This document shows, in pieces, positions 9,167-63,634 of a stretch of 64,000 bases of DNA (positions within the stretch are counted from its first letter, which is position 1; every line of letters begins with the position of its first letter). The notes under the pieces were generated by a model. The model saw only the letters and a list, made by a program, of their open reading frames with translations. It did not search any database and was not told where the DNA came from. Made by a program: the position numbers and the translations under genes. Source of the DNA: Ralstonia sp. A12 (GTDB taxonomy: Bacteria; Pseudomonadota; Gammaproteobacteria; Burkholderiales; Burkholderiaceae); the NCBI RefSeq assembly GCF_000801955.1, contig NZ_JSZO01000020.1:62001-126000 (forward strand), read 5' to 3'.

Positions 9167-9349
9167 ATGAACAAGGACCAAGTGAAGGGCCGTCTGCAAG
9201 AAGCGAAAGGCAAGATCAAGGAAGTCGCGGGCAAGGTGACCGGCGATGAAAAGACGCAGGTCAAGGGCAACATCGAGAAGAACGTCGGCCGCGCACGCGC
9301 CACCATGGGCGATGTTCGTGAAGACGTGAAGAAGACGCTGGACCGTTAG
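9167..9349 (+). CDS. CsbD family protein
   Basis: The 60-residue protein begins MNKDQVKGRLQEAKGKIKEV and continues AGKVTGDEKTQVKGN, the CsbD family pattern. CsbD-like proteins are small, hydrophilic, highly expressed and induced by general stress; their biochemical role is unknown. An AAGGGGAT site precedes the ATG. It is divergent from the phasin gene. Confidence 0.92.
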   Translation: MNKDQVKGRLQEAKGKIKEVAGKVTGDEKTQVKGNIEKNVGRARATMGDVREDVKKTLDR

Positions 9350-9497
9350 CGATACGCAGGAAAAGGCGGAACTTCCGCGCCGGAATCCGCGTTCAGTGTG
9401 TGGGAATTGGCTGACACCGTTTTCAGGCATCGGTGCCTGCACATCGCGCCTTGCACGTCCTTTAATACAGGCATATGAACGATAAAAGGAGTGTGTT

Positions 9498-9698
9498 ATG
9501 CGTGCCTTCGTATCCTTGTTACTGGCGGCTATGTTGGCATCCGTCAGCGGATGCGCGGACATGACGCCAAGGCAGCGGAACACGGCGCTCGGCGCGGCCG
9601 CGGGCGGTGTCGCCGGGGCGGCCATCTGGGGCGGCCCGGGTGCGACGCTGGGTGGTGCAGCACTGGGTGGTGTGATTGGTAACACCATCGGCAGATAA
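9498..9698 (+). CDS. Glycine-zipper lipoprotein (OsmB-like)
   Basis: The 66-residue precursor has a lipoprotein signal with lipobox SVSGC, cysteine at about residue 19. The mature part is a glycine zipper: ALGAAAGGVAGAAIWGG and ATLGGAALGGVIGNTIG. OsmB/Rickettsia 17-kDa-type lipoproteins with this layout are outer-membrane anchored and often osmotically induced. AAAAGGAG precedes the ATG. A strong terminator follows. Confidence 0.85.
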   Translation: MRAFVSLLLAAMLASVSGCADMTPRQRNTALGAAAGGVAGAAIWGGPGATLGGAALGGVIGNTIGR

Positions 9699-54460: not shown

Positions 54461-55969
54461 ATGCAGACAATCGGGATTGTAGGCACCGGCGCCATGGGGC
54501 GCGGTATTGCGCAGATCGCGGCCCAGGCCGGCCTGCGCGTCAAGTTGTTCGATGCCAACCCGCCCGCCGTGGAAGCGGCGCGTACGGCACTGGCCGATAC
54601 GCTCGGCAAGCTGGCCGCCAAGGGCAAGCTGACGGCGGAGGACGCCAACGCCACCGTCGCTCGATTGATTCCCGCCGGCGCTCTCACCGATCTGGCCGAC
54701 TGCGATCTCGTCGTCGAGGCCATCGTCGAGAAGCTGGAGGTCAAGCGCGACCTCTTCCGCCAGCTCGAAGACATCGTCCGCGCCGATGCGATCCTGGCGT
54801 CGAACACGTCGTCACTGTCGATCACAGCGATTGCCGCAACGTGCAAGCACCCCGAGCGCGTGGCCGGCTTCCACTTCTTCAACCCGGTGCCGCTGATGAA
54901 GGTGGTCGAGGTGATCGACGGCCTGCGCAGCGCGCCTGCCACGGGTGATGCCTTGGCCGCACTCGCCAAGCGCATGGGCCACACGGCCGTGCGCTGCATC
55001 GACATGCCGGGCTTCATTGTCAACCACGCCGGGCGAGGCATGAACACCGAGGGCCTGCGCGTGGCGCAGGAAAGCGTGGCCGCGTATGCCGACGTGGACG
55101 CGATCATGCGCGAGCAGGCCGGCTTCCGCATGGGCCCGTTCGAGCTGATGGACCTGACGGGGCTGGATGTGTCGCACCCGGTGATGGAATCGGTCTACCG
55201 CCAGTTCTACGAAGAGCCGCGCTATCGCCCCTCGCAGATCACGGCGGTGCGCTTTGCCGGCGGCATCCTGGGCCGCAAGACCGGCGAAGGTTTCTATCGC
55301 TATCCGGAAGGACAGAAGCAGGTGCCCGCCGAAGCGCCTGTGCCGACCGCGCGCCCGTCGTCGGTATGGATCAGTCGCGCACATGAAGCCGGTCATGCCG
55401 CTGCACAGCGCCTGCTGCTCAACCTGGGCATCACGCCCGAGGCTGGCTCCAAACCGTCCGCCGACGCGCTGATCATCGTCACGCCGCGCGGGCTGGATGC
55501 CACGGCTTGCGTGGTTGCGGAAGGACTCGATGCACGCCGTACCGTGGCGCTCGATACGCTCTATCCGTTTGCCGCCACCAAGCGCCGCACGCTGATGACC
55601 ACGCCCGCCACCGATGCAGCCTATCGCGATGCCGCGCATGGCTTGCTCGCCTCCGACGGCGTACCGGTGACGGTGATCCGCGATTCGGGCGGTTTCGTCG
55701 CGCAGCGCATCGTCGCGTGCATCGTCAACATCGCATGCGATATCGCTCAACAGCGCATTGCCACGCCCACCGACATCGACCTCGCCGTTACGTTGGGCCT
55801 CGGCTATCCGCAAGGGCCGCTGGCACTGGGCGATACGCTGGGCGCGAATGCCGTGCTCGAAATACTGCAGAACCTCTACACGCTCTATGGCGACCCGCGT
55901 TATCGCCCGAGCCCGTGGCTGCTGCGTCGTGCCCGTCTGGGCATGTCGTTGCTGACACTCGATGCCTGA
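54461..55969 (+). CDS. 3-hydroxyacyl-CoA dehydrogenase (two-domain, PaaH-like)
   Basis: The 502-residue NAD-dependent enzyme oxidises 3-hydroxyacyl-CoA. The NAD loop GIVGTGAMGRGIAQIAAQAG is at residues 4-23, and the catalytic His is in VAGFHFFNPVPLMKVVEV near 135. It has the duplicated C-terminal helical domain (FGMGPFELMDL-type region FRMGPFELMDLTGLDV near 225 and a second TLGLGYPQGPLALGDTLG near 445), which is the layout of PaaH/PaaC. No other phenylacetate genes are near, so general beta-oxidation or 3-hydroxybutyryl-CoA is likelier. It opens the acyl-CoA cluster. Confidence 0.92.
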   Translation: MQTIGIVGTGAMGRGIAQIAAQAGLRVKLFDANPPAVEAARTALADTLGKLAAKGKLTAEDANATVARLIPAGALTDLADCDLVVEAIVEKLEVKRDLFRQLEDIVRADAILASNTSSLSITAIAATCKHPERVAGFHFFNPVPLMKVVEVIDGLRSAPATGDALAALAKRMGHTAVRCIDMPGFIVNHAGRGMNTEGLRVAQESVAAYADVDAIMREQAGFRMGPFELMDLTGLDVSHPVMESVYRQFYEEPRYRPSQITAVRFAGGILGRKTGEGFYRYPEGQKQVPAEAPVPTARPSSVWISRAHEAGHAAAQRLLLNLGITPEAGSKPSADALIIVTPRGLDATACVVAEGLDARRTVALDTLYPFAATKRRTLMTTPATDAAYRDAAHGLLASDGVPVTVIRDSGGFVAQRIVACIVNIACDIAQQRIATPTDIDLAVTLGLGYPQGPLALGDTLGANAVLEILQNLYTLYGDPRYRPSPWLLRRARLGMSLLTLDA

Positions 55970-56011
55970 TCCTGATGCCTGACCGCCGCCACTCACTCTG
56001 ACGAGGCCGCC

Positions 56012-56791
56012 ATGACCGCGCAACTGCTCTCCCAACGCATTGGCTCGACGCTGGTGCTCACGCTGTCCAACCCTGACGCACGCAACGCGCTGGACCCGGT
56101 GATGTACACCGCGTCGATGGAAGCCCTGGACCGCGCCGCCAACGACAACGAGATCCGCGCCGTCATCTTTACCGGCGCGGGCAACGCATTCTGCGCCGGC
56201 GGCAACCTGAACCGGCTGCTGGCAAACCGCAGCCAACCCAAGAGCGTGCAGGAAGAAGGCATCGACGCGCTCAATCATTGGATCGAGACGATTCGCACGT
56301 TCCCCAAGCCCGTGATTGCCGCAGTGGAAGGCCCAGCGGCGGGTGCGGGCTTCTCACTGGTGTTGGCGTGCGACTTTGCGATCGCCGCGTCGGATGCCAA
56401 GTTCGTGATGGCGTATGTGAACGTGGCACTCACACCGGACGGCGGTGGCTCGTGGCACATCGCACGCTTCCTGCCGCGTCCGCTGGCCAGCGAGATCATC
56501 ATGCTCGGCAAGCCGGTCGGTGCAGAGCGGCTGGCGCATTTCGGCCTCATCAACGAGGTCGTCAAACCCGGCGAGGCGCTGGACCATGCGCTGACACTGG
56601 CGGAGAAGCTGGCCGCGCAATCGCCGCATGCGGTGGGCCGCATCAAGGGCCTGATCACCAACACAGAAGACGCCTCGCTGCACGATCACCTCAAGGCCGA
56701 GCAGCACAGCTTTGTCGAAGCGCTGCATCACGCCGATGGCAACGAAGGCATCTCCGCCTTCCTGCAGAAGCGCAAACCGCAATATCGCTGA
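56012..56791 (+). CDS. Enoyl-CoA hydratase/isomerase family protein
   Basis: The 259-residue crotonase-fold protein has the oxyanion-hole stretches FTGAGNAFCAGGNLN near residue 52-66 and AAVEGPAAGAGFSLVLACD near 104-122. The second usual acidic catalytic residue is expected near 130-140 in VNVALTPDGGGSWHIAR, where Asp replaces one Glu position; an isomerase or dehydrogenase-linked activity is possible. It follows the dehydrogenase by 42 bp. Confidence 0.9.
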   Translation: MTAQLLSQRIGSTLVLTLSNPDARNALDPVMYTASMEALDRAANDNEIRAVIFTGAGNAFCAGGNLNRLLANRSQPKSVQEEGIDALNHWIETIRTFPKPVIAAVEGPAAGAGFSLVLACDFAIAASDAKFVMAYVNVALTPDGGGSWHIARFLPRPLASEIIMLGKPVGAERLAHFGLINEVVKPGEALDHALTLAEKLAAQSPHAVGRIKGLITNTEDASLHDHLKAEQHSFVEALHHADGNEGISAFLQKRKPQYR

Positions 56792-56803
56792 TCGCAGGCA
56801 CAC

Positions 56804-57562
56804 ATGGTTCCCTTTCCGACACCCAAGCGCCGGCGCGTCTATCTGATGCGCCACGGCGCCGTGACGTATTTCGACGAAACCGGCCGCCCTGTTCGCTCGC
56901 CCGAGGCCGTGCCGCTCAACGAACTCGGCCGCAGCCAGACCACCGCTGCGGGCAAGATCTTCGCCGCCGAGAACATCGTCTTCGATCGCGTGATCGTCAG
57001 CGGCCTACCGCGCACGGTGGAGACCGCGCAGCGTGTGCTGGCTGAGATGCCCGCGATGCAGGAGCGCGCTACCACACACGGCCTGACGCTGGAGCAATGG
57101 CCAGAGCTGCAAGAGATTCGCGGCGGCAAGCTGGCGGAGATTCCCGAGCATGAACTCGCGCAAGCCTTCATCGGCGCATTCGCGGGCACGGTGCGCGAAG
57201 ACCGCCGCTTCCTGAACGGCGAGAGCGTCGGCGAGTTCCTCGACCGTGTGATTCCCGCCATTGCACGCCTGCGCGCCCTGCCCGACTGGGACACCGTGCT
57301 GCTGGTGCTGCACGGCGGCACCAACCGCGCGATCCTCTCGCACGCCATCACCGGCGGGGAGCGTGTGTTCTACGGCAGCCTCGCGCAGACGGCCGGCTGC
57401 ATCAACGTGCTCGACGTGGGTGACGAACCTGGCGATTGGGTGCTGCGCATGAGCAATTTCTCGCCGCCGTCGCCCACGCATCTCGGCTCACGGCTGACGA
57501 CGATGGAGGTGCTGCTGCAGGAATACCTTCAGCATCGGCAACCAGCGCGCCAACCGGCCTGA
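56804..57562 (+). CDS. Histidine phosphatase superfamily protein
   Basis: The 252-residue protein has the phosphohistidine motif LMRHGAVTYF at about residues 14-23 (RHG), the second Arg in SGLPRTVETAQRV near 65, and the catalytic His in VLLVLHGGTNRAILSHAI near 168. Its place 12 bp after the enoyl-CoA hydratase and 38 bp before the acyl-CoA-linked kinase suggests a phosphate-handling step in the same pathway, perhaps phosphate removal; inference only. Confidence 0.9.
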   Translation: MVPFPTPKRRRVYLMRHGAVTYFDETGRPVRSPEAVPLNELGRSQTTAAGKIFAAENIVFDRVIVSGLPRTVETAQRVLAEMPAMQERATTHGLTLEQWPELQEIRGGKLAEIPEHELAQAFIGAFAGTVREDRRFLNGESVGEFLDRVIPAIARLRALPDWDTVLLVLHGGTNRAILSHAITGGERVFYGSLAQTAGCINVLDVGDEPGDWVLRMSNFSPPSPTHLGSRLTTMEVLLQEYLQHRQPARQPA

Positions 57563-57600
57563 ACTTTCCTCGACACACAACAAGATTCGGAGACATACCC

Positions 57601-58689
57601 ATGGCACAGACGGAGCAGCAGGATTTCTCGGCCTTCGAGGGCACGCGCCCGGTAGCAGACCAGCAGAAGTTCGACATCGCCGCGCTGGAAGCGTGGATGC
57701 GCGAGCACGTGGAAGGCTTTGCTGGCCCGCTCACGGTTGAGCAGTTCAAGGGCGGCCAGTCGAACCCGACCTTCAAGCTGATCACGCCGTCGCGCACGTA
57801 CGTGATGCGTGCCAAGCCGGGGCCGAAGGCGAAGCTGCTGCCGTCCGCACACGCCATCGAACGCGAGTATCGCGTGATGCATGCGCTGGCCAACACCGAT
57901 GTGCCGGCCCCCAAGATGTTCGCGCTGTGCGAAGACGAAGCCGTGATCGGCCGCGCCTTCTACATCATGGAGTTCGTGCAGGGCCGTGTGCTGTGGGACC
58001 AGGCCCTGCCCGGCATGGAGCCCGCCGAGCGCACCGCCATCTACGACGAGATGAACCGCGTCATTTCCGCGCTGCATCGCGTGGACTACGCCGCCATCGG
58101 CCTGGCTGACTACGGCAAACCCGGCAACTACTTCGCACGCCAGATCGAGCGCTGGAGCAAGCAATACAAGCTGTCGGAAACCGAGTCCATTCCGGCGATG
58201 GACAGCCTGATCGAATGGCTGCCCAAGCACGTGCCGCAAGAGGCGGAAGAGATCACCAGCATCGTCCACGGTGACTACCGGCTCGACAACCTGATCTTCC
58301 ACCCGACCGAGCCGCGCGTGCTGGCCATTCTCGACTGGGAGCTGTCGACGCTGGGCCATCCGCTGGCCGACTTCAGCTACCACTGCATGAGCTGGCATAT
58401 CGAGCCTGGGCAATTCCGCGGCGTGGCCGGGCTGGACTTTGCGGCGCTCGGCATCCCTTCCGAAGCCGAGTACATCCGCCAGTACGAAGAACGCACCGGC
58501 CGCCGCATCACCGGCGACTGGAACTTCTACCTCGCCTACAACATGTTCCGCATTGCGGGCATCCTGCAGGGGATCATGAAGCGCGTGGTGGATGGCACGG
58601 CGTCATCCGCACAGGCGCTGGAAGCGGGCAAGCGCGCTCGCCCGATAGCCGAGCTGGGCTGGAAATACGCCCAGCAGGCTGGCGCATAA
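57601..58689 (+). CDS. Phosphotransferase like the kinase domain of ACAD10/ACAD11
   Basis: The 362-residue APH-fold kinase has the ATP loop VEQFKGGQSNPTFKLITPSR near residue 42-61, PSAHAIEREYRVMHALANTD near 81, the catalytic Brenner motif VHGDYRLDNLIFHP near 222 (Asp as base) and LAILDWELSTLGHPLADFSY near 243. These closely follow the kinase part of mammalian ACAD11, and LvaA of levulinate catabolism belongs to the same type. There the enzyme phosphorylates the 4-hydroxyl of 4-hydroxyacyl-CoA. The matching ACAD is at 62375-63634. AGAC/GGAG precede ATG 57601. Confidence 0.88.
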   Translation: MAQTEQQDFSAFEGTRPVADQQKFDIAALEAWMREHVEGFAGPLTVEQFKGGQSNPTFKLITPSRTYVMRAKPGPKAKLLPSAHAIEREYRVMHALANTDVPAPKMFALCEDEAVIGRAFYIMEFVQGRVLWDQALPGMEPAERTAIYDEMNRVISALHRVDYAAIGLADYGKPGNYFARQIERWSKQYKLSETESIPAMDSLIEWLPKHVPQEAEEITSIVHGDYRLDNLIFHPTEPRVLAILDWELSTLGHPLADFSYHCMSWHIEPGQFRGVAGLDFAALGIPSEAEYIRQYEERTGRRITGDWNFYLAYNMFRIAGILQGIMKRVVDGTASSAQALEAGKRARPIAELGWKYAQQAGA

Positions 58690-58698
58690 GGCAGCGCG

Positions 58699-59103
58699 TC
58701 ACACGTACTCGCGCGCCGCTTCCAACGGACCGGACAGCGACGCTTCCAGCTCCAGCACCACCCCGCCCGGCAACTGCACAAAGATCTGTGCGGCAGGCCG
58801 CGCGGGGTGTTTTCGTACCTGATGCGGGATACCGCTTTCACGCACCGCAGCCAGCACATCCGCCGCATCCTTCTTTGTGCGGAACGCAATGTGCGAAAAC
58901 ACAAGCTCCGGGGTCTCTCCCTCCTGCGTCACTAGGTGCACCAGCGCATCGTCGTTCTGGTACAGCCATGTACCGGGAAACGGAAACGCCGGGCGCGGCC
59001 CCGGTTTCCAGCCAAACACGTCGGCGAAGAACTTGAGGATGGGCGCGTCACCTGCCACGTGGAAATTCACGTGGTCGAATGTCCAGTCGTTGTCCTCTGT
59101 CAT
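58699..59103 (-). CDS. VOC (glyoxalase/bleomycin resistance) family protein
   Basis: The 134-residue protein fits the vicinal oxygen chelate fold. It begins DWTFDHVNFHVAGDAPILKF with a His near residue 10, has FSHIAFRTKKDAADVLAAV near 68 and ends with the GGVVLELEASL strand with a Glu metal-ligand candidate. Activity and substrate are unknown. Its start overlaps the stop of the SDR gene by 4 bp (ATGA), so the two are translationally coupled. Confidence 0.85.
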   Translation of the reverse strand: MTEDNDWTFDHVNFHVAGDAPILKFFADVFGWKPGPRPAFPFPGTWLYQNDDALVHLVTQEGETPELVFSHIAFRTKKDAADVLAAVRESGIPHQVRKHPARPAAQIFVQLPGGVVLELEASLSGPLEAAREYV

Positions 59104-59804
59104 AGCAAACCGCCTCCTTCAATATCGATGATGGCGCCGGTCATGAAGCCGTTGGTCATGGCCAGCAGGTAGCCCTGAGCAAGATCTTCCGGCGTACCGA
59201 CACGGCCGACCGGTAAGCCGCTGCCAATGCGCGCGAGCATTGCTTCACGATCGGCGGGGGCGCCCCACACTTCCGTATCCACCACGCCGGGGCTGACCAC
59301 GTTGACGCGGCGCGGCGCCAGTTCCTTTGCGAGGTTCTTGCCAGCCGCTTCCACGGCTGCGTTGATGGATGCGCGCAGCAACCCGGTCGCGGTAGCTTTG
59401 CGTGAGAGCAGACCCGATGTGAGTGTGATCGACGCCCGCTCCGCCAAATGCGGCAGCGCGGCCTGCACCGCCATCAGCGCAGCAAACAGCTTGGTGCCGA
59501 AGCCCTGTTCCAGATCAGCCCGTTGCAGCGAGGCAAACGGCGGCGGGCTCGTGCGCGAGCCGATGGTGACGACAAGGTGGTCGATCTTGCCGCCAGCCGC
59601 CGCCTGGGTGAATGCGCTCGCCAACGATGCCGTGTCGTTTGCATCCACAGCAACCCCATGAATACCGCCATCCGCCCTGGCCGAACGGCCCAGCACCGTC
59701 ACGCGGGCGCCTGCGGCCGCTGCGGCGCGCGCCACCGCTTGCCCAATGCCCGCCGTACCGCCCAACACCACCACCGACTGGTCCTGCAAGGTCTTCGAAG
59801 TCAT
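59100..59804 (-). CDS. SDR-family protein lacking the YxxxK motif
   Basis: The 234-residue Rossmann protein has the SDR cofactor loop GGTAGIGQAVARAAAAAGARV near residue 15 and the structural PGVVDTEVW near 170. Where the catalytic YxxxK should follow the Ser (SGLLSRKATATGLLRASINAAVE), neither Tyr nor Lys is present: Leu and Asn stand there. The helix after it is normal (AAVEAAGKNLAKELAPRRVN). Either it catalyses a different step or it is a non-catalytic binding protein. It is coupled to the VOC gene and divergent from the first LysR gene. Confidence 0.85.
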   Translation of the reverse strand: MTSKTLQDQSVVVLGGTAGIGQAVARAAAAAGARVTVLGRSARADGGIHGVAVDANDTASLASAFTQAAAGGKIDHLVVTIGSRTSPPPFASLQRADLEQGFGTKLFAALMAVQAALPHLAERASITLTSGLLSRKATATGLLRASINAAVEAAGKNLAKELAPRRVNVVSPGVVDTEVWGAPADREAMLARIGSGLPVGRVGTPEDLAQGYLLAMTNGFMTGAIIDIEGGGLL

Positions 59805-59859
59805 GCCAACGCTCCTTTGAGAAGAAAGAAAAAACCGTCAATCGACCGGGGCGATTCTT

Positions 59860-59900
59860 TCATCAAACAAAAGCAAGATAATCTGGCTATGCTTTGATGA
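59860..59900. promoter_or_regulatory. Inverted repeat between SDR and LysR genes, probable LysR operator
   Basis: TCATCAAA (59860-59867) and TTTGATGA (59893-59900) form an 8-bp perfect inverted repeat 25 bp apart, in the divergent promoter region of the SDR and LysR genes. LysR-type regulators commonly bind such sites in the region shared with the divergent target. Confidence 0.5.
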
Positions 59901-59921
59901 TTCTCCAAACTGGCTTTGACA

Positions 59922-60890
59922 ATGATCGCCCTCGACGACCTCCGCCTGCTGGTGCGCATTGCCGATGCCGGCAACCTTTCCGCCGCCGCACGACAACTCG
60001 GCTGGCTGCCTGCCACCGCCAGCGCCGCGCTCAAGCGTGTAGAGACTGATCTGGGCGCCCGCCTATTCGAACGCACCACGCGCAGCATGCGGCCCACTGA
60101 AGCAGGCCAGCGTTATCTAGGGTATGCAAGACAGGCGCTGGAAGCGTTGGATGAAGGCGCTGAAAGCCTGGGTCAAGACCGCACCGAGCTGGCGGGCGCC
60201 ATCCGGATTGCCGCCACCTCAGACCTGGGACGGCACATCCTGCGCCCGTGGCTCGATGCCTTCTGCGATGAACACCCCGGAGTGCGCGTCACGCTGGTGC
60301 TGGGCGACCGGCTGGCCGACCTGATGCGCGAAGACCTCGATTTCGCGCTGCGCTATGGGAATCTGCAGGATTCGGCACTGGTACGGCGGCCGCTGGCGTC
60401 GCATCCACGCGTGGTCGTGGGCGCGCCGTCGTACTTCAAGCAGCATGGCCGGCCCGCACATCCGAGCGATCTGGCCGACCACCGCTGCCTGATCCTGCTG
60501 CGCAACGGCGAGCCCGTCACGCGCTGGCAGCTCACGCATTCCAGCGGCCCCGCCCCCATCGACGTGCGTGGCGATTTCCAATGCGATGACGGCGCCGTCG
60601 TGCGCGACTGGGCGGTCGCCGGGCGTGGGCTGGCGTTCAAGTCGTGGCTGGACGTGGCGCAGGATGTGAGCGCCGGTCGACTGGAGGTGGCATTGCCCGC
60701 GTGGAGCCATGCGCCCACGCCACTGCAACTCGTGAGCTTGGCGCGCCGCCATCGGCCAGCACGGCTGACGGCCTGTGCGGAATTCCTGGCCGCGCGCTTT
60801 GCGGAGTTCAGCGCGCGCTATCCGTTTCCGTCGGCAAAGGCAGCCGCGGCTTCATCCAAGGCTACCTCGGCCATCGCCGCGAAGATGTGA
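59922..60890 (+). CDS. LysR-family transcriptional regulator
   Basis: The 322-residue regulator has the N-terminal winged helix-turn-helix (IALDDLRLLVRIADAGNLSAAARQLGWLPATASAALKRVE, residues 2-42; RLFERTTRSMRPTEAGQRY) and a substrate-binding domain from about residue 90. It probably controls the divergent SDR-VOC pair. The 3' end overlaps the convergent second LysR gene by 73 bp. ATG 59922 is preferred to an upstream TTG. Confidence 0.92.
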   Translation: MIALDDLRLLVRIADAGNLSAAARQLGWLPATASAALKRVETDLGARLFERTTRSMRPTEAGQRYLGYARQALEALDEGAESLGQDRTELAGAIRIAATSDLGRHILRPWLDAFCDEHPGVRVTLVLGDRLADLMREDLDFALRYGNLQDSALVRRPLASHPRVVVGAPSYFKQHGRPAHPSDLADHRCLILLRNGEPVTRWQLTHSSGPAPIDVRGDFQCDDGAVVRDWAVAGRGLAFKSWLDVAQDVSAGRLEVALPAWSHAPTPLQLVSLARRHRPARLTACAEFLAARFAEFSARYPFPSAKAAAASSKATSAIAAKM

Positions 60891-61765
60891 TCACGCAACC
60901 AGCGGCCGGCGGCATCCTGATCGCTGTTGGCGTGCCAGTACAGGTACAACTCCAGCGCCGGCACGTTGAACGGCAGCGGCAGCATGACGTTGCCATACGG
61001 CTCGTTGGCAATGCGCGCGTAGCGCACTGGCAGCGTGACGAGCCAATCCGTACAACTCACGACACGGCACGCCGCCGGGTAGTGCTGGCAGCGCAGGCGC
61101 ACCCGGCGCTCGCGCCCCAGTCGGCGCAACTCCACGTCTTCCAGCCCCGCCCCGCGACGCCGTGATGACACCTGCACGTGCTCACAGGCCAGGTAGCGAT
61201 CCAGCGTGAGCGGCGCCTGTGTGATCGGGTGGCCGGGGCGCGCCAGCACCACCATCGGGTCTGACAGGATCGGCGCGTGGCGGATGGCTGGGGACGCCGG
61301 CAGCAGAATGTCCGCCACCGCATCAATGGTGCCGGCCAGCAGCTCGGCTTCGAGCTGGCGACGATCTCCGCGCACCGTGGTCACGTCGATGCGTGGCGCT
61401 TCCTTGGCAATCGCTGCCATCAGGGGCGGCAGCAACGTTGCCTCCAGTGCGTCGCGCATCGAGATCGTGAAGCGGCGTTCACTCGTGGCCGGATCAAACC
61501 GCGTGCCCTCGCGCAACGTGCGCTCAAAGCCCTGCAACGATGTGCGCACCTCGGCGATGAGCGTGCGCGCCAGCGGCGTCGGCACCATGCCCTGCCCGCG
61601 CCGCTCGAACAGCGGGTCGTCAAACAGCTCGCGCAGCCGCCCGAGTGCGTGGCTGACGGCCGGCTGCGTCAGGTTGAGCGTGCGCGCCGCCGCCGTGATG
61701 CCGCCTTCCGTATAGATAGCGTCGAAGACGACGAACAGGTTCAGGTCGACCCGCGAGATATGCAT
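60818..61765 (-). CDS. LysR-family transcriptional regulator (NodD/NahR-like subgroup)
   Basis: The 315-residue regulator starts MHISRVDLNLFVVFDAIYTE, the hallmark of the NodD/NahR branch, with the helix-turn-helix GITAAARTLNLTQPAVSHAL at about residues 22-41 and the effector domain from about 90. It is divergent from the thioesterase-ACAD genes and likely regulates them. A candidate T-N11-A site, ATGAAT/ATTCAT at 61773-61797, lies in the shared upstream region. The last 24 codons overlap the first LysR gene on the other strand. ATG 61765 is preferred to TTG 61783. Confidence 0.92.
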   Translation of the reverse strand: MHISRVDLNLFVVFDAIYTEGGITAAARTLNLTQPAVSHALGRLRELFDDPLFERRGQGMVPTPLARTLIAEVRTSLQGFERTLREGTRFDPATSERRFTISMRDALEATLLPPLMAAIAKEAPRIDVTTVRGDRRQLEAELLAGTIDAVADILLPASPAIRHAPILSDPMVVLARPGHPITQAPLTLDRYLACEHVQVSSRRRGAGLEDVELRRLGRERRVRLRCQHYPAACRVVSCTDWLVTLPVRYARIANEPYGNVMLPLPFNVPALELYLYWHANSDQDAAGRWLRDHIFAAMAEVALDEAAAAFADGNG

Positions 61766-61772
61766 GATTTTG

Positions 61773-61797
61773 ATGAATGGCAATCTACGAAATTCAT
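61773..61797. promoter_or_regulatory. Candidate LysR binding site
   Basis: ATGAAT (61773-61778) and ATTCAT (61792-61797) are inverted repeats with 13 bp between, i.e. of the T-N11-A type, in the divergent region of the second LysR gene and the thioesterase gene. Confidence 0.4.
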
Positions 61798-61857
61798 TTC
61801 TCTTATTGTAGGCGAAGGCTTAAGCTGCGGGCATTGATGTGAGTGATGCGATCAGCC

Positions 61858-62313
61858 ATGACCACAGCCACCGAACGCTCTGTACCTGCCGGCTTTGAGA
61901 TCCTGAATAAGCCGAGCCCCTTCCTGACGATGCTGGGCCCGGTCTATGCCCGTGGCATGGGGCCGTCGATGGTGATGGGCTTTCATGTGGGGCACCACCA
62001 CCTGAACCGGCGCGGCATGCTGCACGGCGGTGTGGTGGCCTCGCTGGCTGATGCGGCGCTGGGTTACTGCCTGGCCGACCCAGCCAGCGGCAACAGCAAC
62101 GAAGGCGTACTCGCCATGTCCACCGCCAGCCTCACCGTAGATTTCATCGCCTCGGCAGCAGAAGGCGACTGGATCGAGATCGCCCCGGAAGGCTTGCGCA
62201 CCGGCAGCAAACTGGCCTTTGCGCAGGCGCTCTTTCACCGCGGCGACCGGCTGGTTGCTCGCGCGAGTGCCGTATTTGCCGTGCTCGGCGGCCGTATCGC
62301 CGCGCCCGTCTGA
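61858..62313 (+). CDS. PaaI-type hotdog thioesterase
   Basis: The 151-residue protein fits the PaaI thioesterase family. RRGMLHGGVVASLADAALGYCL near residues 57-78 is the hotdog helix with the HGG motif and an Asp; the beta strands TASLTVDFIASAAEGDWIEI and RLVARASAVFAVLGG follow. It would hydrolyse acyl-CoA, here probably tied to the ACAD 61 bp downstream. No strong Shine-Dalgarno is seen before ATG 61858; GTG 61843 is an alternative. Confidence 0.85.
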   Translation: MTTATERSVPAGFEILNKPSPFLTMLGPVYARGMGPSMVMGFHVGHHHLNRRGMLHGGVVASLADAALGYCLADPASGNSNEGVLAMSTASLTVDFIASAAEGDWIEIAPEGLRTGSKLAFAQALFHRGDRLVARASAVFAVLGGRIAAPV

Positions 62314-62374
62314 ACTGAACTGACTTGATGGATTGCCCGTTCGAGACGCTTGTTCGATGTATTGAGGAGACACC

Positions 62375-63634
62375 ATGAATTTCGATTACACCCCGAAGGT
62401 CAAGGAAATGCAGGCACGCCTGCTCGAATTCTTCGACCAGCACATCTACCCGAACGAGCAGCGCTTCTACGAAGAAATCGAAGCCAACCGCCGTGCGGGC
62501 AATGCCTGGATCCCGACCAAGGTGATCGAAGAACTCAAGCCGCTGGCGCGCAAGGCCGGGCTGTGGAACCTGTTCCTGCCGCGCTCGACGCGCGCACCGG
62601 AAGGCCTGTCGAACCTGGAATACGCCACGCTGTGCGAGATCATGGGCCGGGTGCCCTGGGCGCCGGAAGTGTTCAACTGCTCCGCGCCGGACACCGGCAA
62701 CATGGAGACGCTGGAGCGTTACGCCTCGGAAGCGATCAAGGACCGCTGGCTCGAACCGCTGCTGCGCGGCGAGATCCGCTCCGCCTTCCTGATGACCGAG
62801 CCGGCCGTGGCCTCGTCGGATGCCACCAACATCGAATGCCGCATCGAGCGCCAGGGCGATGAGTACGTCATCAACGGCCGCAAGTGGTGGTCGTCGGGCG
62901 CAGGCGACCCGCGCTGCGCCGTGTACATCGTCATGGGCAAGACCAACCCGGACGCTGGCCGCCACGAGCAGCAATCGATGATCGTGGTGCCGGCCGATGC
63001 GCCGGGCATCACCGTCATGCGCCCGCTGACGGTGTTCGGCTACGACGACGCACCGCACGGCCACATGGAAGTCGACCTGAAGAATGTGCGCGTGCCGGTG
63101 GGCAACATCCTGCTGGGTGAAGGCCGTGGCTTCGAGATCGCGCAGGGTCGCCTGGGCCCGGGCCGCATCCATCACTGCATGCGCAGCATCGGCATTGCCG
63201 AGCGTGCGCTGGAACTGATGTGCAAGCGCCTGACGACGCGCATCGCGTTCGGCAAGGCCATCGCACAGCATAGTGTCTGGCACGAACGCATTGCCGAGGC
63301 CCGCTGCATGATCGAACAGGCCCGCCTGCTCACGCTCAAGGCCGCGTACATGATGGACACGGTTGGCAACAAGGTCGCCAAGGCCGAGATTGCGATGATC
63401 AAGGTGGTGGCGCCGAACATCGCTTGCCAGATCGTCGACTGGGCGATCCAGGCGCACGGCGGTGCGGGTGTGTCGGGCGACTTCCCGCTGGCCTCGTTCT
63501 ACGCGCATCAGCGCACGCTGCGCCTGGCCGACGGCCCAGACGAAGTGCACCGTGCCGCCATCGCCAAGCTGGAACTGGCCAAGCACCTGCACCTGAAGGA
63601 CATTCCTGACATGCCTGTCACGCGCGGCGCATAA
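62375..63634 (+). CDS. Acyl-CoA dehydrogenase of the ACAD10/ACAD11 type
   Basis: The 419-residue flavoenzyme has the ACAD signatures [20 protein letters not shown] near residue 148 and [16 protein letters not shown] near 170 at the FAD site. It also has [33 protein letters not shown] near 245-280 and [20 protein letters not shown] near 350. These closely follow mammalian ACAD11 rather than the short-chain enzymes; the ARDFA-type Glu base position differs in that group. In ACAD10/11 and LvaC the enzyme eliminates phosphate from 4-phosphoacyl-CoA. The fitting kinase gene is at 57601-58689. TGAGGAG precedes the start and a terminator follows. Confidence 0.92.

Follow-up and report, generated by a model that had tools for sequence, protein, structure and literature searches.

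A probable split bacterial counterpart of ACAD10/ACAD11 in Ralstonia sp. A12 and the histidine phosphatase that recurs beside its kinase

We analysed a stretch of 64,000 nucleotides from Ralstonia sp. A12 (assembly GCF_000801955.1, contig NZ_JSZO01000020.1, positions 62,001 to 126,000 of the forward strand), hereafter the window, which carries on its plus strand a phosphotransferase (kinase) gene at 57601-58689 and an acyl-CoA dehydrogenase (ACAD) gene at 62375-63634. Judged by sequence, the kinase and the ACAD are members of the ACAD10/11 group, split over two genes, and the locus is very probably a split bacterial counterpart of mammalian ACAD10/ACAD11 that includes their kinase/ACAD route. 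A histidine phosphatase gene lies directly upstream of the kinase gene. Such phosphatases are recurrent partners of the kinase, drawn from two lineages, and this partnership is the new content of the present analysis. Reports on the mammalian enzymes that act on 4-hydroxy fatty acids date from 2024 and 2025. According to PMC12440821 and PMC11342911, ACAD10 and ACAD11 eliminate phosphate from 4-phosphoacyl-CoA and a Burkholderia pseudomallei orthologue also turns over; PMC11342911 further describes a kinase (Q63VL0) and an ACAD orthologue from B. pseudomallei which substitute in vitro for the corresponding domains of ACAD10. Our search of the open-access literature found no paper joining ACAD11, bacteria and histidine phosphatase; among the matches listed, the related papers with a histidine phosphatase term were PMC6692424 and an Acinetobacter transcriptome paper (PMC5757984).

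The kinase and acyl-CoA dehydrogenase genes

The initial annotation of this DNA had placed the two genes at these positions and likened their products to the two fused domains of ACAD11, and both proposals held. Each gene opens with ATG preceded by a sequence resembling a ribosome binding site (GGAGA for the kinase, 362 amino acids; GAGGAG for the ACAD, 419 amino acids), and the kinase and ACAD motifs quoted in that annotation are present in the translations. Over 335 aligned residues, the kinase shares 43% identity with the kinase domain of mouse ACAD11, and the ACAD shares 59% with mouse ACAD11 over 388, with the tested residues kept apart from R86 (see Discussion). Pfam APH matched the kinase with 185 bits, and its matches in the PDB were 3dxp (706 bits), mouse ACAD11 8v3v (276 bits) and 9o56 (189 bits). 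For the ACAD, the ACAD11 entries 8v3u (504 bits), 8v3v (502 bits) and 2wbi (498 bits) were followed by 4hr3 (447 bits), after which the next match fell to 136 bits. A search of the genome gave 20 ACAD-like matches, the best of which, window ACAD aside, reached 125.8 bits. In a quick IQ-TREE phylogeny of 52 rows, the window ACAD and mouse ACAD11 were grouped within a 41-row clade (Shimodaira-Hasegawa-like approximate likelihood ratio test 99), as expected for a protein of the ACAD10/11 clade, and seven further ACADs of the same genome, taken from the 19 other matches, all fell outside it.

Residues involved in catalysis or in substrate and phosphate binding are listed in PMC12440821 as D220, N225 and R176 of the kinase and R626, R631, H634, R637 and D753 of the ACAD. 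We assigned their counterparts from the flanking letters, the count along the aligned chain running one behind the numbering of that paper. All three kinase residues have identical counterparts in the window: the protein belongs to the APH-like family, carries the catalytic aspartate of the HGD motif (D225) and the asparagine that follows it (N230), and is a predicted 4-hydroxyacyl-CoA kinase. The five ACAD residues correspond to R259, R264, H267, R270 and D386, again identical, so that the catalytic aspartate (D386) and the phosphate residues R626, H634 and R637 (R259, H267 and R270) are all present in this predicted 4-phosphoacyl-CoA-eliminating ACAD.

The kinase was 95-98% identical at the nine closest loci (L051-L059; two R. 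pickettii, 96%) and 81% identical at another Ralstonia locus (L091), among the matches listed. It was found in all 15 other genomes of the genus that were sampled, in two of them as partial matches, and the kinases of Caballeronia and Trinickia were 72-76% identical to it.

Linkage of kinase and ACAD across genomes

Kinase loci were compared in a redundant set of 233, made of 80 best matches and 153 loci from further Pseudomonadota genomes; the 80-locus part is heavy in Cupriavidus and Ralstonia because it consists of the listed best matches. An ACAD of the ACAD11 type was present in 143 of the 233 stretches, and at 77 loci it lay on the kinase strand at most 1.6 kb away. The distance was about 3-9 kb in the Ralstonia loci and in many Cupriavidus loci. 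The HHCMR motif was found in every kinase-linked ACAD of the ACAD11 class that was long enough to score (138/138, of 143). Identity, residues, phylogeny and gene linkage of the kinase and the ACAD are thus direct observations of this work.

In the genome of Ralstonia sp. A12, only two kinases of this family were found, alongside a single ACAD11-type ACAD. The second kinase (around 5611-7312 of contig C3; L002, L175) is 52% identical to that of the window. A histidine phosphatase gene of its own lies upstream and a short-chain dehydrogenase/reductase (SDR) gene downstream, and an open reading frame (ORF) further upstream looks OYE-like by eye. No ACAD11-type ACAD was found within the 14.6 kb stretch around it.

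ACAD genes also occur in stretches where no kinase was matched. In a genus presumed to be Pseudomonas, the ACAD was detected at an expectation value (E) of 1e-70 or better in 58 of 59 genomes, mostly at 64-69% identity. At the three loci read there (L306, L307 and L308; 64-68%) it adjoins a divergent LysR gene, and these stretches gave no kinase match. Second ACAD copies (L304 and L305, 53-54%; L309, partial, at a contig end) also had no kinase match nearby.

Histidine phosphatases beside the kinase

The window phosphatase (56804-57562, plus strand; His_Phos_1, 108 bits) had been noted in the initial annotation as an unexplained extra before the kinase. Its presence was confirmed; it is no stray gene, since a phosphatase accompanies the kinase repeatedly, if not always. 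A hidden Markov model seeded from kinase neighbours detected 88 histidine-phosphatase ORFs in the 233 loci, all 88 on the kinase strand and 82 within 2.5 kb. As this model had been seeded from kinase neighbours, the search was repeated with queries restricted to the four phosphatases that this genome encodes away from its kinases. The repeat returned 86 matches, all within the same 88, with 81 near the kinase, five far from it and none on the opposite strand. The near spans totalled 1151 kb and the far spans 2747 kb (2.4 times larger), which gives an about 39-fold density near the kinase. In the genome of Ralstonia sp. A12 itself, six His_Phos_1 genes were found (seven matches, two in one frame), two of them directly upstream of its two kinases.

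The phosphatases fall into two types, described below. Type A, that of the window, occupies the position directly ahead of the kinase in 54 of 55 cases; two Cupriavidus necator loci (L065 and L068) carry it together with the kinase and the ACAD. Type B was upstream in 27 (adjacent in 10, with at least one gene between in the rest) and adjacent downstream in four. A further family (f88; L194 and L201) has a phosphatase about 4 kb downstream that belongs to neither type, L194 alone being in the tree. In the Pseudomonadota set, a phosphatase lay within 5 kb at one or more loci in 29 of 89 genera and 16 of 36 families, and on a kinase tree (FastTree, 118 labelled rows) its presence or absence within 5 kb switches at least 13 times.

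Among eight annotated plasmid records, three carry the kinase-phosphatase pair: Azoarcus, with the phosphatase upstream, and Pseudoalteromonas and Deinococcus radiodurans, the latter from another phylum, with the phosphatase downstream. The pair was not seen on the records of Haloterrigena, two Rhodococcus, Paraburkholderia and C. necator H16, the last being centred on an ACAD with no kinase listed. On D. radiodurans plasmid 3 (L310) the kinase and phosphatase genes share 8 bases, and ACAD, thioesterase, MaoC and SDR genes lie upstream.

Reverse searches started from the phosphatases. With type A, 17 matches were obtained in 200 genomes of the order at E 1e-25. Thirteen had 48% identity or more and, as read by eye, all but one of them (in genome G038) adjoin a kinase, making 12; the remaining four, at 36-38% identity, do not adjoin a kinase. 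With type B, 72 matches were obtained in 69 of 398 genomes, and 32 lay within 5 kb of a kinase among the matches listed. A kinase was detected at E 1e-40 in 66 of the 69 type-B genomes and in 64 of the 329 others, counts that ignore shared ancestry and genome size.

At three loci without a phosphatase (L109, L115 and L127), the upstream slot holds an ORF that reads by eye as a Crp/Fnr-type regulator. At L268, a type-B phosphatase and a kinase with HND in place of HGD flank a small ORF (9181-9516, minus strand) that looks SCP2-like by eye.

Two phosphatase lineages

In a careful IQ-TREE phylogeny of 36 phosphatases, type A formed a group of 10 rows including the window protein (support 100/100) and type B a group of 21 rows (98/94); L194 and the four unlinked phosphatases lay outside both. 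The deep order is unsure, because the tree has several long branches. In type A, the residues R16, H17, R70, E104 and H170 of the window protein each reached at least 95% conservation across a redundant set of 56 sequences. The window phosphatase thereby shows the full set of histidine phosphatase branch 1, namely the RHG motif, a second arginine, an acidic residue and a second histidine. In the 32 type-B sequences, the corresponding first histidine, both arginines and the glutamate are kept and Ser160 is present in at least 95%. In the joint alignment, serine replaces the second catalytic histidine in all 21 type-B rows, including that of Deinococcus and the second copy of this genome, and it was also found in three type-B genes located away from a kinase. 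Azoarcus sp. KH32C is another source of a type-B protein. The position is occupied by histidine in all four unlinked phosphatases and in L194. The second kinase thus has a type-B partner whose serine puts it outside the branch 1 pattern, and type B as a whole is probably a pseudophosphatase or a modified phosphatase.

The AlphaFold2 model of the window phosphatase (predicted local distance difference test score, 83.5) has the expected fold. Its top PDB matches were alpha-ribazole phosphatase, RosC and mycobacterial hydrolases, at 21-24% identity and TM-scores (query length) of 0.5-0.6. Assignment as the alpha-ribazole phosphatase CobC was ruled out by a score of 62.6 bits, the cut-off being 162.9.

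Neighbouring genes

The dehydrogenase, enoyl-CoA hydratase, thioesterase and phosphatase genes announced for this region, as well as two LysR genes between kinase and ACAD, were all located and matched to families. The kinase is the last gene of an operon-like run of four on the plus strand, separated by gaps of 42, 12 and 38 bases: a PaaH-like 3-hydroxyacyl-CoA dehydrogenase (54461-55969; NF006124, 764.7 bits, cut-off 508; TIGR02279 PaaH, 452.7 bits, under the cut-off of 669.4), an enoyl-CoA hydratase/isomerase family protein, or crotonase (56012-56791; ECH_1, 185 bits; NF005700, 416 bits, cut-off 274), the phosphatase and the kinase. The crotonase also passes NF046063 (oxepin-CoA hydrolase, alternative type) with 380 bits for a cut-off of 300. 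The same run was found again in several genera of Burkholderiales, and a 3-hydroxyacyl-CoA dehydrogenase gene precedes the kinase at Ralstonia and most Cupriavidus and Caballeronia loci.

Between the kinase and the ACAD, two genes absent from the initial annotation accompany the first LysR gene in a Ralstonia block: a VOC-like ORF (58699-59103, minus strand), labelled by eye as it matched neither Pfam nor NCBIfam, an SDR oxidoreductase (59100-59804, minus strand; adh_short_C2, 106 bits) and LysR regulator 1 (59916-60890, plus strand; LysR_substrate, 139 bits). Relatives of the VOC-like ORF were found at nine loci (L051-L058 and L103). The block is absent from the Ralstonia locus L059 and, apart from a weak VOC-like match, from L056, neither of which gave a match to LysR 1. 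LysR regulator 2 (60818-61783, minus strand) is LeuO/BsrA-like at scores below those cut-offs; it is convergent with LysR 1, the listed ORFs sharing 73 bases (60818-60890), and divergent from the thioesterase-ACAD pair. The hotdog thioesterase (61843-62313, plus strand; 4HBT, 43 bits) ends 61 bases ahead of the ACAD. A LysR 2-type gene is divergent to the ACAD at many Cupriavidus loci as well as at the three presumed Pseudomonas loci, which makes LysR 2 the better candidate and the likely regulator of the ACAD.

Discussion

The proposal of a 4-hydroxyacyl-CoA kinase working with a phosphate-removing ACAD gained support from the matching catalytic residues, from the tree and from the activity of the B. 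pseudomallei orthologues in vitro (PMC11342911). Because these orthologues are reported to replace the ACAD10 domains, the 4-hydroxyacyl-CoA reading can be taken as close to established, its core kinase/ACAD chemistry being already known from reports on orthologues. The kinase would phosphorylate the 4-hydroxyl of a 4-hydroxyacyl-CoA at the expense of ATP, and the ACAD would eliminate the phosphate with cycling of its flavin adenine dinucleotide and no net oxidation. The resulting trans-2-enoyl-CoA would enter beta-oxidation via the adjoining crotonase and 3-hydroxyacyl-CoA dehydrogenase. The natural substrate and the use made of these last two genes are what we infer.

The histidine phosphatase would keep the level of the phosphorylated intermediate down through hydrolysis of 4-phosphoacyl-CoA or of stuck free 4-phospho acid, a limiting role that we find plausible at slightly less than an even chance. 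Given intact residues and a modelled fold as expected, hydrolysis would be the simplest mechanism for type A. For type B, the serine substitution makes control without ordinary hydrolysis appear more likely. A broader proposal, which we advance only tentatively and rate as rather unlikely, is that 4-hydroxyacyl-CoA kinases are restrained by phosphatase-fold partners, an arrangement that would have arisen at least three times (type A, type B and the HAD domain of ACAD10). Such a partner would act as a brake by binding either the kinase or what the kinase makes; type A would have retained catalysis, and type B and ACAD10 would have lost it.

Several observations weigh against these interpretations. 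R86 of ACAD11 had no positional counterpart that could be assigned in the window, where an Arg-Glu pair lies nearby. The kinase phylogeny places mouse ACAD11 inside the sampled set, at a position without support. At 145 of the 233 kinase loci, no phosphatase on the kinase strand was found closer than 5 kb, which shows that the pathway does not depend on one. For 40 of the 72 type-B genes, no kinase among the matches listed lay close by; these matches give no kinase position for genomes G202 and G429 at least. As a weaker point, the VOC, SDR and LysR 1 genes that part the two halves look like a variable Ralstonia arrangement, as the block is absent at L059 and, but for the weak VOC-like match, at L056. 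Finally, the crotonase and the dehydrogenase may serve phenylacetate catabolism, or both pathways, as discussed below.

It is conceivable, although we doubt it, that the chemistry is right but that the natural substrates, instead of simple 4-hydroxy fatty acids or lactones, are 4-hydroxyacyl-CoAs derived from terpenoid, aromatic or other side chains, the two kinases of this genome serving different ones. These kinases are 52% identical and have different neighbours in a genome with one ACAD11-type ACAD, and kinases elsewhere have varied neighbours, for instance a ring-hydroxylating dioxygenase subunit or, near another kinase, an AtuA family protein with a biotin carboxylase; however, the tested relatives are reported to work on plain 4-hydroxyhexanoyl-CoA. 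Slightly less probable still is that the 3-hydroxyacyl-CoA dehydrogenase and the crotonase are PaaH and the oxepin-CoA hydrolase of phenylacetate catabolism and mere neighbours of the kinase. Both genes may serve that pathway because the crotonase exceeds the NF046063 cut-off, a PaaA gene lies elsewhere in the genome, and a genome search with the window dehydrogenase as query found no other match along its full length (the best covers residues 2-288 at 41% identity). Yet the four genes are closely spaced and occur together in several genera, and the dehydrogenase is far under the PaaH equivalog cut-off. PMC6692424, in which a phosphatase gene lies near an lvaA homologue and no lvaB was found, raised the possibility that the phosphatase takes off the phosphate in the main pathway, ahead of the ACAD or in its place. 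We consider this improbable: the ACAD/LvaC step is reported as phosphate-removing in vitro, simple hydrolysis merely regenerates 4-hydroxyacyl-CoA, many loci have no phosphatase and type B lacks the second catalytic histidine. An aminoglycoside-resistance phosphotransferase, hinted at by the APH domain and a weak NF033068 match, was rejected as extremely improbable, since that match reached 31 bits for a cut-off of 205, the ACAD11 and 3dxp matches were far stronger and the gene neighbours are metabolic.

Bacteria offer divided, easily handled versions of the ACAD10/ACAD11 enzymes, many with a separate phosphatase-like gene. If the phosphatase does control the kinase or clear its product, the HAD domain of ACAD10 would be explained by convergence, and there would be a general reason for this pathway to need a brake on its phosphorylated CoA ester.

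Comparison with known systems

A close bacterial comparison is with the B. pseudomallei kinase Q63VL0 and its ACAD, presumed orthologues of the window pair. The lva operon of P. putida KT2440, as described in the papers citing it, resembles the window in its separate kinase and ACAD and in its route through a phosphorylated 4-hydroxyacyl-CoA; LvaA is given in PMC11342911 as 29% identical to the kinase domains of ACAD10/11. The lvaABCDE and LvaR gene set is not reproduced here, as neither an acyl-CoA synthetase nor an LvaR-type regulator was found among the ten proteins of 54461-63634. In place of these genes, the window has the 3-hydroxyacyl-CoA dehydrogenase, the crotonase and the phosphatase. 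PMC6692424 describes a histidine phosphatase gene between the lvaA and lvaC homologues of P. citronellolis LA18T and calls for its functional analysis. That gene is comparable, by description, to the partner phosphatase near the kinase here, although it belongs to a levulinate cluster with an LvaR homologue, unlike the window.

In mammals, ACAD10 and ACAD11 combine the same kinase and ACAD families, and the catalytic and phosphate-pocket residues of ACAD11 are the same as in the window pair; there they form one fused protein, whereas the window has two genes. ACAD10 further carries a HAD domain whose DxD motif is short of one aspartate; according to PMC11342911, this domain restrains the kinase and has negligible phosphatase activity. 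The window has instead a separate histidine phosphatase with intact residues. The type-B partner, with serine for histidine, is reminiscent of this degenerate HAD domain and its restraint of the ACAD10 kinase.

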